Assembly: GCA_021372535.1 (NCBI GenBank)
Contig: JAJFUH010000109.1
Span: 1-45,689, forward strand
Source of the DNA: a bacterium
GTDB taxonomy: Bacteria; Latescibacterota; Latescibacteria; Latescibacterales; Latescibacteraceae
DNA length: 45,689 nucleotides
Reading direction: 5' to 3'
Positions 8,361 through 25,145 of the stretch are shown piece by piece. The notes beneath the pieces were generated by a model. It did no database searches and was not told the origin of the DNA. It saw only the letters and a program-made list of their open reading frames with translations. Position 1 is the stretch's first letter; each line of letters begins with the position of its first letter. Position numbers and translations under genes: made by a program.

Positions 8361-9254
8361 TTACAGAACATCCTGATACGCAAGAAACAGCGCCCGGTAG
8401 TAGTGCATGACACGGATCGGGTCGGTGCTTTCCGGTATTTCCGCACAGCAGTATCCCCGGTAACCGTTTCCCCGCAGGAGCGTGAATAGTTTCCGGAAGG
8501 GATATTCTTCCAGAAAGAGGTCGCGCATGTGGACGAAATGTATCTTATCCCTGAGGAGGTTGAAGTTGTCTTCCAGGCCGCCGTCGAGCAGGTCGGACTG
8601 GTTCGAGTTCCAGCAGATAAAGCAGTTGCCGCTGTCCGCATAATTGAGCATCTTTCTGATTCTCGGCACACGGCTTGTTTCGGTTCCATGAACCTCGACA
8701 CGGATTTCGACGCCGTGGTTTCCGGCGAATTCGCTCACCTCGCGGAACGACTTCCCGATCTGTTCGAGCGTTTTTTCTTCGGGGATACCCTCACCGACAT
8801 GGAGGTTGTTGGGCCGCACCTTGACCCCGGCGGCGGCGACATCTTGGGCGAGCAAGATATACTCTTTCGTACCGTCGATATTCTTTTTCAGCACATCCGG
8901 GTCGGGTGAATCGAACTCGAAAGCGCTTCCGAGGCTCGCGAGAACAACCGGCGAATCCTCGAATTTCTTTCGTACTTCCCTGCGCTGCGCCGCGGTCAGA
9001 TCGACCTCGACCTTGTGTGCATGGGTGGTACGGAGCTCGACCGCTTCGAATTTTGTCTCCGTGCAGTTTTTGATGATCGTATCGATATCCCACGATTTCG
9101 CCAGATTATAGGTAACGAGGCCGAGATGCAGCGGTTCACCCGCGCTTTTCTCCTCGGGAGCGCCATGACACGGTGCAGCGGCGAGCAATGACCCCGCAGA
9201 AACCGTGAGGGCAGAAGCCTTCATGAATCCCCTTCTCGATTGTGTTCCAGCCAT
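8361..9254 (-). CDS. Xylose-isomerase-like TIM-barrel (sugar phosphate isomerase/epimerase), Tat-exported
   Basis: 297 residues from the ATG at 9254, chosen over an upstream start at 9287 because AAGGAG sits 8 bp before it and the protein then begins with a Tat signal (SRRGFMK, residues 6-12, then a small-residue run to about 32). The rest matches the AP-endonuclease-2/xylose-isomerase-like TIM barrel: HLGLVTYNLAK (strand 1), FEAVELRTTHAH (strand 2), VKVRPNNLHVGEG (strand 4), IRVEVHG (strand 5, usual metal-ligand Glu), FICWNSNQSD (strand 6), IHFVHMRD (strand 7) and CCAEIPES (strand 8). Known relatives isomerise sugars; the substrate is unknown here. Last gene of the run starting at the rhamnosidase, 79 bp after the cupin gene. 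Confidence 0.88.
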   Translation of the reverse strand: MAGTQSRRGFMKASALTVSAGSLLAAAPCHGAPEEKSAGEPLHLGLVTYNLAKSWDIDTIIKNCTETKFEAVELRTTHAHKVEVDLTAAQRREVRKKFEDSPVVLASLGSAFEFDSPDPDVLKKNIDGTKEYILLAQDVAAAGVKVRPNNLHVGEGIPEEKTLEQIGKSFREVSEFAGNHGVEIRVEVHGTETSRVPRIRKMLNYADSGNCFICWNSNQSDLLDGGLEDNFNLLRDKIHFVHMRDLFLEEYPFRKLFTLLRGNGYRGYCCAEIPESTDPIRVMHYYRALFLAYQDVL

Positions 9255-9333
9255 GACAACCACTCCTTTTCCTGCTTTTTTAAACAATCATGGAGCCGGT
9301 TTATTTTTTTCTCTGGTTCCGATGTTTGTCCCG

Positions 9334-14564: not shown

Positions 14565-15518
14565 TCATGTCCCCATGAGCGCTCGCAGGACACGGTTGTC
14601 TTCCTTCAGGTCGCGGATATGGTTTTTAAGCTGTTCGGCTTTCGAGTCACCCGGTATGGGATACTCAAAATGCTGGGTGATGGGAGCCTGATACCCTGAC
14701 TTTTTCAGCATGGTGAAAAATTCGGCGCTGACCATTCCCTTTCCGAGGAGACACCAGTCGACTGTCCCGCCTTTCCCGGGAGTACATTCCCAGGTGAAAT
14801 CCTTGACAATCACCGCTCCGATGTGCGACTGAATAAGCCGGTACTGCGTGCGCCAGGACAATCCGCCCTCCACCGTGGCATGACCGATATCGAAATGCGA
14901 GGCGAGATACCGTGGATCGAGGTCCCGGATGATCTCATACACATCCCAGACAGCGGCGCCGACCATATTCCGGCCCGAATGATTCTGGTAGAGGCCGCAC
15001 ATCCCAAGTTCCTTGTTGAGCTGTGCGAGGTCACGGAGCTGCGGCTTGATTTCCGCGAGCTGATCCTGAATAGCGGCATCGTCCCTGTACTGCCACCACC
15101 CGCAGCGATAGTACCTGATTCCGAGCTTGCTCGCGGTCCGGAGAATTCGCTCCGTATACTGTTCATCGGGATTACGGATTGCGGTCGCCATGATGAGCAG
15201 TTCAAGTTTCCTTTTTCCGAGCGCCTCGACCATCCTGGGGAGGTCATCCTCAACCCGTTCCGGAAGGACATGTCCTTCCGGGCGGACAGGGCATTCGATG
15301 CCGTCCCATCCGACTTCCGCAGCAGCCTCGGCGGTCTCCTCGTAATTGAGTCCAAGGCTCTGGAATGTTTTGGTAAACCCTCCGAATTTGAGCACGGATT
15401 TTTCAGCGGCCTGCGCACCGGTACTGTGACCGGCGCCCAAAACTGCGGATGCAATACCGGCCGTGGAGGCGCCTTTGAGAAACGTCCTCCGTGTCAGGGA
15501 TTTAATTTCGGTCATCAT
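14565..15518 (-). CDS. Xylose-isomerase-like TIM-barrel protein, Tat-exported (second copy)
   Basis: 317 residues from the first of two adjacent ATGs (15518 or 15515); AGAGGAG lies just upstream. A frame extending to 15662 lacks a binding site and would overlap the preceding gene. Residues 10-15 (TRRTFL) are a Tat motif followed by a small-residue segment to QAAEK. The barrel shows LGLNYEETAEAAAEVGWDGI (strand 1 region), RYYRCGWWQYR, LGMCGLYQNHSG (strand 5), YLASHFDIGHATVEGG (strand 6, DxGH) and HIGAVIVKDFTW (strand 7). These are hallmarks of the sugar isomerase/epimerase group, with metal-binding Asp and His. It is only distantly like the copy at 8361. Substrate unknown. Confidence 0.88.
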   Translation of the reverse strand: MMTEIKSLTRRTFLKGASTAGIASAVLGAGHSTGAQAAEKSVLKFGGFTKTFQSLGLNYEETAEAAAEVGWDGIECPVRPEGHVLPERVEDDLPRMVEALGKRKLELLIMATAIRNPDEQYTERILRTASKLGIRYYRCGWWQYRDDAAIQDQLAEIKPQLRDLAQLNKELGMCGLYQNHSGRNMVGAAVWDVYEIIRDLDPRYLASHFDIGHATVEGGLSWRTQYRLIQSHIGAVIVKDFTWECTPGKGGTVDWCLLGKGMVSAEFFTMLKKSGYQAPITQHFEYPIPGDSKAEQLKNHIRDLKEDNRVLRALMGT

Positions 15519-15576
15519 ATACACTCCTCTGTCAGATGTGTCAGTGCATGGTATCAATTTTCCCTTATAACCGGTA

Positions 15577-16212
15577 TCAATGGTATAACCGGTTGAAATC
15601 CTCAAGTATATCGCCGTTGAGCGATACACGGATTTTATCGGGATTATTGACAATGTCGGCAACTATTATTTTCAGATCACGAACGTTGCTCGTCACCCTG
15701 CGGTTGATATACCGGCTCAGGATTGGTGACACCGCCTTGAGCAGCAGGCTGGCAACGATGTTATCGCCTCCCTCGCCGTAGATATTCAATGTTACCGAAA
15801 CGGAGTTTTGATTACCGGTATAATTCAACAGGAAAAGCACTTTCCCCATCAATGATATGGGTATACCCCAGTTTTTCAGTTTCCCGCGGGCATAAAAAAC
15901 CTTGTTGTTTTCGTCTGACTGAATGACGAAAAGGTCACCTTCGATCCCCGTGGGATCGATGACATGGAGAGCGGCGCCCTTCATGCTCACCTTGTAGCGC
16001 GGTGTAAAATCATACACCTCCCACAGCTTGCCGATGAGATAGGGATTGTTCAATATCCGGTTCCACATATCAAGCGTGGCATCGATGGTAAAGCTCGTTT
16101 TATAGGAAATGCTGGCTTTATCGATAAAATCCCTGGTATTCACGGTTTGAGCATGACTATATGTGATACATGATATCCATACAAGCATGGCGGGTACAGT
16201 CATTTTTTTCAT
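15577..16212 (-). CDS. Exported protein, possible START/SRPBCC-like fold
   Basis: 211 residues from the ATG at 16212, with only a weak GAGAA binding site; a TTG at 16218 is also possible. Residues 1-21 (ending SHAQT) look like a Sec signal peptide. The mature part alternates strands and helices. DMWNRILNNPYLIGKLWEVYDFTPRY resembles the opening of START/SRPBCC lipid-binding domains, and a middle run (LFVIQSDENNKVFYARGKLK) looks like beta strands. No catalytic motif stands out and I do not recognise the family with certainty. It ends 58 bp before the downstream TIM-barrel gene, so the two may be co-transcribed. Confidence 0.6.
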   Translation of the reverse strand: MKKMTVPAMLVWISCITYSHAQTVNTRDFIDKASISYKTSFTIDATLDMWNRILNNPYLIGKLWEVYDFTPRYKVSMKGAALHVIDPTGIEGDLFVIQSDENNKVFYARGKLKNWGIPISLMGKVLFLLNYTGNQNSVSVTLNIYGEGGDNIVASLLLKAVSPILSRYINRRVTSNVRDLKIIVADIVNNPDKIRVSLNGDILEDFNRLYH

Positions 16213-23824: not shown

Positions 23825-23846
23825 CATTCTCTGGAGAAATAATAAC

Positions 23847-25145
23847 GTGACCGTATCCCCGAGAAGAGAATTCCTCAAAAAGATGCTGGCATCATCCGCT
23901 CTCCCGCTGTATCAGCTCAGCCTGTCATGCGGGAAACCGCCCGCTTCGTCGGCTGAAACATACCTTCACGCTCTCATGAAGATTTTCAGCGTTATCATAA
24001 GAACCGAATCCGGAGCCATCCGTGACGCCGCGAACCTTTCCGCGGATACGCTGATCGCCAGAAACCGCTGTTTTCTCTATACCGGATTTCCTGCACAGCC
24101 CGGTTATCTCAACGAGGATATGCCCGGGTTACCGCGGATTTTCATCAACCTCCGCTCTCTGCCCATGGCCGAAACCATACGATCCGGCGATATGCTCCTT
24201 GCGACGGATACCGGCGAATTCACCGATATCGCCCGGAAAAACGGCGCGCGCATTGTCGGTATAACATCACCGCCGTTTACCGATGAATACAAGCAGTCCC
24301 TGTACGGTTCTTTCGCGGTAATAAAACACATGGGAGACAGCGCCGACATGTTGATCCGCTCTCATCTTCCGTTCCGGGACGGGCTCGTGAAACGTCCAGA
24401 ATATCCCTTTTCCATCCTTCCTGCCACTATTCCGGTGCGTCTTCTGCTGGTCATGGCGCTCGCAGGAGAAACCTACCGGCGATCGGGCGGCATTGGATTA
24501 ACGGGAAACACACTTCCCCGCGATGCAGCCGGCTTCATCGGCACGGTTCTCGGCCGCATGAACGAGCTTGCAAATCAGGCTGCAACAATACATCAGGCCG
24601 GAACCATGGCGGCTGAACATATTGCCGGTGGAGGGCGTCTCTGGATTTATGACAGCCGCGATGCGCTGAAAACCATGCTGCCGGATGCATCGGGAATCCC
24701 GCTTTTCGCGCATCCCATTTCACGGCAGGAGATACAGGGCGGCTTCCTGAAATCCGGTGATGTCGTTCTGTTCGGGTCCCTGCGGTCGAATGCAACCGGA
24801 GACCTCAATCTCATCAGGGCGTTACGCTCCGTCACGAATGCCGTGATCACCATCTGCCCCCGCGATGAAACCGGAGGGTACCGCCTGTTCAAGGAATCGG
24901 CTCACGGCCTCGACAACCTGAGCTCCGAGAGCACCGGAGTCATGTCTTTCGATGACGGTCGCCCGCCATTTCTCCATACGGGCGGCATTATGAACTGTAT
25001 TCTTATGTGGATGGTGATCGGAGCGATTACCGACAGTCTCGCTGAACGGGGGGAACCGCCCTGCTATCTCATGGGTTCTCATCTTGCGGGAAGCGAGCAG
25101 TACAACGCGGAAGCGCTGGCGATAGCAGATAAACGGGGATACTAG
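23847..25145 (+). CDS. Tat-exported protein with two SIS-like domains
   Basis: 432 residues from a GTG with GGAG 10 bp upstream. Residues 4-12 (SPRREFLKK) are a near-ideal twin-arginine motif. Two similar halves follow, each like the SIS_2 sugar-isomerase-type Rossmann fold. The first (about 40-215) has AANLSADTLIARNRCFLYTG, then IRSGDMLLATDT and ARKNGARIVGITSP. The second (about 235-430) has TMAAEHIAGGGRLWIYDSRD, then FLKSGDVVLFGSLRSN and VTNAVITICPRD. The closing GGIMNCILMWMVIGAI and CYLMGSHLAGSEQYN match the C-terminal part of SIS_2 proteins. The usual GxGxS sugar-phosphate loop is not intact in either half. SIS proteins are normally cytoplasmic, so an exported tandem form is unusual; it may bind rather than isomerise an aminosugar. 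Function unknown. Confidence 0.75.
   Translation: MTVSPRREFLKKMLASSALPLYQLSLSCGKPPASSAETYLHALMKIFSVIIRTESGAIRDAANLSADTLIARNRCFLYTGFPAQPGYLNEDMPGLPRIFINLRSLPMAETIRSGDMLLATDTGEFTDIARKNGARIVGITSPPFTDEYKQSLYGSFAVIKHMGDSADMLIRSHLPFRDGLVKRPEYPFSILPATIPVRLLLVMALAGETYRRSGGIGLTGNTLPRDAAGFIGTVLGRMNELANQAATIHQAGTMAAEHIAGGGRLWIYDSRDALKTMLPDASGIPLFAHPISRQEIQGGFLKSGDVVLFGSLRSNATGDLNLIRALRSVTNAVITICPRDETGGYRLFKESAHGLDNLSSESTGVMSFDDGRPPFLHTGGIMNCILMWMVIGAITDSLAERGEPPCYLMGSHLAGSEQYNAEALAIADKRGY

Follow-up and report, generated by a model that had tools for sequence, protein, structure and literature searches.

The protein described here is related to the SIS domain proteins of the UPF0309 group and is not a new fold. 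Its gene lies on a contig of 45,689 nucleotides (the window) from a bacterium of the family Latescibacteraceae. SIS domains have been described as cytoplasmic phosphosugar proteins. Here, two unequal SIS halves, termed A and B, follow a Tat-type signal, and we give an even chance to the view that the protein, a member of an asymmetric tandem-SIS family of A-B order, is exported, probably anchored by a lipid, and binds a sugar without catalysis. Held somewhat more tentatively, just short of an even balance, is the wider proposal of an exported family of asymmetric two-half SIS proteins with about 20 paralogues per genome. These would share a composite A/B site for non-phosphorylated sugars and occur as A-B fusions, B-A fusions and split pairs that may hitchhike through Tat. 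If true, this large exported branch would have moved SIS chemistry or binding to sugars outside the cytoplasm. The tandem exported form is described by none of the Pfam and NCBIfam models searched, and no paper in the literature collection searched combines 'SIS domain', 'twin-arginine' and 'periplasm'. Coordinates of the gene, its features and its rearranged relatives are collected in Table 1.

Table 1. Features of the tandem-SIS gene in the window and rearranged members of its family elsewhere
Feature	Coordinates	Strand	Basis
Tandem-SIS protein, 432 aa, predicted to be exported, A-B order	23847..25145	+	ORF, fold, family profile
GGAG ribosome-binding sequence, 10 bases 5' of GTG	23833..23836	+	sequence
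Predicted Tat signal peptide, residues 1-28	23847..23930	+	RR and Cys kept in L043 and L044; TatC in genome
Twin arginine, residues 6-7	23862-23867	+	
Cys28, probable lipobox Cys	23928-23930	+	
A-type SIS half, residues 34-218	23946..24500	+	A profile 73.7 vs B 19.0 bits; hhalign to NagS; tree
A-half loop, residues 73-96, His53 site, here NRCFLYTGFPAQPGYLNEDMPGLP	24063..24134	+	His absent, Arg64 equivalent is Met
B-type SIS half, residues 222-432	24510..25142	+	B profile 126.2 vs A 13.1 bits; hhalign to NagS; tree
C-terminal lid and tail, YLMGSHLAGSEQYN...KRGY	25065..25142	+	equivalent of NagS loop 226-232, alignments
B-A order proteins	L042:4328-5704, L057:2528-3865, L113:8099-9565, L048:7641-8813, L054:3655-5133		
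Split pairs	L040:8221-9569, L060:9399-10690, L051:3549-5024, L114:7954-9622, L115:1114-2518		

The reading frame runs from a GTG start at 23847 to a stop at 25145, exactly as the initial annotation had placed it. That annotation had also singled out a Tat motif. The N-terminus, MTVSPRREFLKKMLASSALPLYQLSLSCG, does contain the twin-arginine motif SPRREFLKK (RREFLKK), which appears near-ideal; a hydrophobic region accompanies it and the Tat machinery is present in the genome (TatC, 216.8 bits), all of which points to export via Tat. The same RR signal was found in the orthologues of two other genomes, and both the RR and the Cys are retained at only 40-50% identity between orthologues. The Cys that closes the signal is shared by all three orthologues, which would fit a Tat lipoprotein; the suggested lipobox, LSLSC, is non-canonical, with unusual residues at positions -3 and -2 when compared with the form [LVI][ASTVI][GAS]C.

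The assignment to the SIS superfamily draws on several lines of evidence. The closest described relative is NagS (SCO4393), the GlcNAc-6-phosphate dehydratase of Streptomyces (UPF0309/PRK02947, PDB 9eol; PMC12680351), placed with the present family in one SIS subfamily by both profile and fold. The two halves, already annotated as similar and SIS-like, match each other (hhalign, E=1.1e-27) as well as NagS (E=1.3e-16 for the N half, E=3.1e-21 for the C half), and the profile of the whole family reaches E=2.5e-24 against the same enzyme. All 40 aligned family members match NF002805 (PRK02947, 'sugar isomerase domain'). Taken as a single sequence, the window protein scores below the curated cut-offs, both for NF002805 (E=2.9e-10, 39.7 bits, cut-off 135) and for Pfam, where the first half obtains 16.5 of 27 bits with SIS_2 and the second 14.3 of 22.3 bits with DUF2529; for this reason it is the profiles of the family and the fold that carry the assignment. 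Its two halves in 432 residues also set it apart from UPF0309 proteins, which are single-domain and about 250 residues long. A scan of the genome contigs with the single protein returned no relative, and a wide alignment contained no usable conserved stretch; an alignment of the subgroup was usable.

An AlphaFold (AF2) model based on a 40-row family alignment is confident (mean pLDDT 86.5, pTM 0.87) and displays the SIS alpha/beta/alpha fold. Its top Foldseek match in the PDB is NagS (9eol, E=1.7e-10), which covers one half, followed by GlmS/GFAT isomerase domains and other tandem-SIS proteins along about 400-415 columns; a search of a viral fold library returned solely GlmS-like matches. A phmmer search of the PDB likewise found NagS (E=0.0013), best along the final 60 residues. 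This stretch, which the initial annotation had likened to SIS_2 proteins, fits UPF0309/PRK02947 (NagS 181-241). No GxGxS loop is left in either half, in line with the annotated lack of a clean one, and the protein lacks the Ser/Thr-rich phosphate-binding loops (GxGxS, SxSGxT type). With a SIS match in each half and the signal present on the orthologues, nothing was seen on these two points that speaks against the initial annotation.

Like the window protein, the GlmS/GFAT isomerase domains combine two SIS domains in one chain. They are, however, cytoplasmic, consist of symmetric-type repeats with phosphate-binding loops, share 10-12% identity at an rmsd of 6-8 Å, and are not the closest relatives by sequence. 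Another weak likeness leads to DUF2529 (PF10740, Bacillus YwjG type), which differs in being single-domain and matches the B half of 13 among the 40 members, with E=1.4e-6 at best.

Where is this family found? In the four genomes available for the Latescibacteraceae a profile search at E<=1e-20 gave 24, 25, 14 and 27 matches, counts that include some genes yielding two pieces, versus 0-3 per genome in the other 60 genomes of the Latescibacterota. Lone relatives come from Poribacteria, from other Latescibacterota and from one Planctomycetes MAG; outside the Latescibacterota sampling is thin, and in the more than 300 genomes sampled there no match was as strong as 1e-40. We read 76 full-length members, namely 21 paralogues from each of three well-sampled genomes (G000, G001, G003); G002 contributed one more, and 12 come from outside the Latescibacteraceae.

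This distribution bears on the possibility that the N-terminal RR is a coincidence and that the protein binds phosphosugars in the cytoplasm, where SIS proteins are normally located. Some relatives from outside the Latescibacteraceae are indeed without a signal, and a cytoplasmic UPF0309 protein exists in the same genome. Yet an export signal, called by a home-made rule that accepts either RR or a hydrophobic region of Sec type within the N-terminal extension, precedes 64 of 64 full-length members from the Latescibacteraceae, 55 of them RR-type and nine Sec-type, whereas 11 of the 12 from elsewhere lack one, the Planctomycetes member being RR-type. One of the 55 RR cases, L057:8557-9903, resembles a Sec lipoprotein more. 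Together with the retention of the RR in the orthologues this renders a cytoplasmic protein highly improbable. As for the UPF0309 protein, the single-domain gene C112:6336-7082 is the only one in the genome to pass the NF002805 cut-off (234 bits). It has no signal, so the genome encodes a normal cytoplasmic protein of this kind beside the exported tandem family. It is accompanied by a sodium:solute symporter, a ROK-type kinase and a PIG-L deacetylase gene, and this locus (L119:658-5019), in which kinase and symporter were named by eye, looks like a cytoplasmic amino-sugar route.

In a tree of all halves, A-type and B-type sequences form separate clades (support 98/94 for A and 97/96 for B), a split with which the HMM scores agree. 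A and B are thus best described, as judged from their sequences, as ancient, distinct and specialised paralogues rather than interchangeable repeats. They occur in three arrangements: A-B fusions, B-A fusions and adjacent split genes. In the five B-A proteins the first half scores as B-type (88.5 vs 27.7 bits in one example) and ends in the B-type tail, while the second is A-type by a smaller margin. In all five split pairs the B gene comes first and the A gene second, with a four-base overlap in L040 and L060 according to the coordinates. The Tat signal sits on A, and in four pairs no signal is obvious on B (in the fifth, L115, the start of the gene is uncertain). Tat is known to transport folded complexes that carry a signal on one subunit, as in HybOC and PaoABC (PMC4273604), and on this basis we infer that B leaves the cytoplasm together with A, as a Tat hitchhiker. 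The likeness lies in a signal-less subunit gene beside one with a Tat signal; it differs in that HybOC and PaoABC are redox enzymes and that the split SIS pairs are known from gene content alone. The pairs would predict a new kind of Tat hitchhiker.

Can a function be read from the residues that have been kept? In NagS the active site is assembled from two protomers, one contributing H53, S54, S91, E94, S119 and S121 and the other R64, A65, G227 and N228; none of the variants H53A, R64A, E94A and D179A has activity, and a loop formed by residues 226-232 closes to cover the substrate (PMC12680351). In the alignment, 72 of 76 A-type halves have the equivalent of His53, and none of the B-type halves does. 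It is the B-type halves that keep the lid (G227/N228), whose N228 is missing from 75 of 76 A halves. This division, with A keeping the histidine and B keeping the lid, fits one composite pocket per molecule, which the sequences suggest for the family. In ordinary members the ligand would accordingly bind at the A/B interface, with A giving the His53 equivalent and B the lid, and the second pocket would have been dismantled, since B has no His and A no lid. The segment around Glu94 falls into a gap in 76 of 76 A halves and 76 of 77 B halves; this loss throughout the family means that the chemistry is not that of NagS.

The phosphate serines of NagS (S54, S119, S121) are not conserved in the family either. 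They are also missing from the signal-less relatives in Poribacteria and other Latescibacterota, so that their loss is not specific to export, and the change of ligand probably preceded it. The ligand itself would probably be a sugar or amino sugar that carries no phosphate and is encountered outside the cytoplasm. NagS is a cytoplasmic single-domain protein whose homodimer has two equal sites, whereas the present family unites two unequal halves in a single chain that is predicted to be exported. Its B half carries the same C-terminal lid and tail, and the geometry of the dimeric site has plausibly been rebuilt within one chain. Going back to one ancestral A/B duplication and preserved in three arrangements, the family would offer a natural system to follow the change from a symmetric dimer to an asymmetric protein with a single site.

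The window protein departs from this scheme. Among the full-length members, only this protein and its G001 orthologue have the His in neither half, and the shortened G003 orthologue likewise has none. Both Arg64 equivalents are gone from this clade, which sits on a long branch of 1.5 changes per column. Equivalents of H53, R64 and E94 are absent from both halves of the window protein, the D179 equivalent is retained in the A half throughout the clade, and among the phosphate serines only the S119 position is Ser, in the B half. The fold, the signal and, in the window and G001 proteins (two of the three orthologues), the lid have been kept. The loss of a near-universal histidine leans towards binding over an isomerase, and the whole pattern of losses and retention makes non-catalytic sugar binding the most likely role. 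The protein would reach its folded state, an intramolecular pseudo-dimer, while still in the cytoplasm and then be exported by Tat, a lipid on Cys28 probably holding it at the membrane, where it may act as a sensor, a scavenger or the partner of an active paralogue.

Catalysis of some kind may survive without the NagS residues, since GlmS-type SIS enzymes use others, and the D179 equivalent kept by the clade also speaks against a purely non-catalytic role. The main rival to the binding role is an active periplasmic isomerase, epimerase or dehydratase that would act on a non-phosphorylated sugar through other residues, for example the motifs of the B half. Indeed, SLxSNA, CPxxxxGGYRL and LHTGG in this half are the best conserved stretches among the three orthologues, the Ser at the NagS Ser119 position lies in the B half as well, and paralogues have transporter, PIG-L, Gfo/Idh and DUF362 genes in their vicinity. 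With all but one Asp of the NagS-essential residues missing and the clade on its long branch, we nevertheless consider such an enzyme unlikely.

Less probable again, though not negligible, is that the gene is a decaying paralogue of little or no function that has been kept only recently. The clade evolves fast, and a deletion inside the A half has removed about 45 residues from the G003 orthologue (L044:436-1557), which also lacks the C-terminal lid and shows no residual homology beyond its truncated end. These defects would also argue against a strictly conserved binding function. Decay is difficult to reconcile with an ORF that is intact across three genera, with the confident fold and with the retained RR and Cys. 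Codon-position differences between the window gene and L043 (0.34, 0.27 and 0.65) are highest at the third position, as would be expected of a constrained coding sequence, dS being saturated in this comparison.

For the preferred sugar-binding role, the genomic surroundings of the window gene provide no functional clue. The neighbours, all on the opposite strand, encode a GalE-like epimerase, a lipoprotein-type FAD oxidoreductase and a tRNA/rRNA methyltransferase, and this neighbourhood is not conserved around the orthologues. Other paralogues lie near sugar-type transporters and DUF362, Gfo/Idh and transglutaminase-like genes, a mixed picture that is consistent with carbohydrate use outside the cytoplasm and not decisive. 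PIG-L deacetylases occur near a few paralogues and may give a weak hint at amino sugars; just one of the eight in the genome is so placed.

DUF362 genes, several of them Tat-type, stand beside tandem-SIS genes at L033:15361-17016 and L036:11144-12898 and on L053, L057, L100, L102 and L112. The domain shares a Pfam clan with the LarA racemases (PMC11770544), and its structure model was of poor quality (pLDDT 57.7) and carries no weight here. A partner link to DUF362 was rejected: the genome contains 38 DUF362 matches and the window gene adjoins none.

Three further observations concern the window itself. The FAD oxidoreductase (FAD_oxidored, PF12831; 20902-22383, minus strand) has the lipoprotein-type N-terminal signal LVFSDCGKK and appears to be a flavoprotein that is exported with no RR motif. 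Two TIM-barrel proteins resembling xylose isomerase (PF01261) at 8361-9287 and 14565-15662, both on the minus strand, have Tat-type N-termini, and further sugar-type enzymes are thus apparently exported in this genome. Finally, a homologue of ribosomal protein L17 (29021-29659, minus strand) carries a long Glu-rich C-terminal extension.
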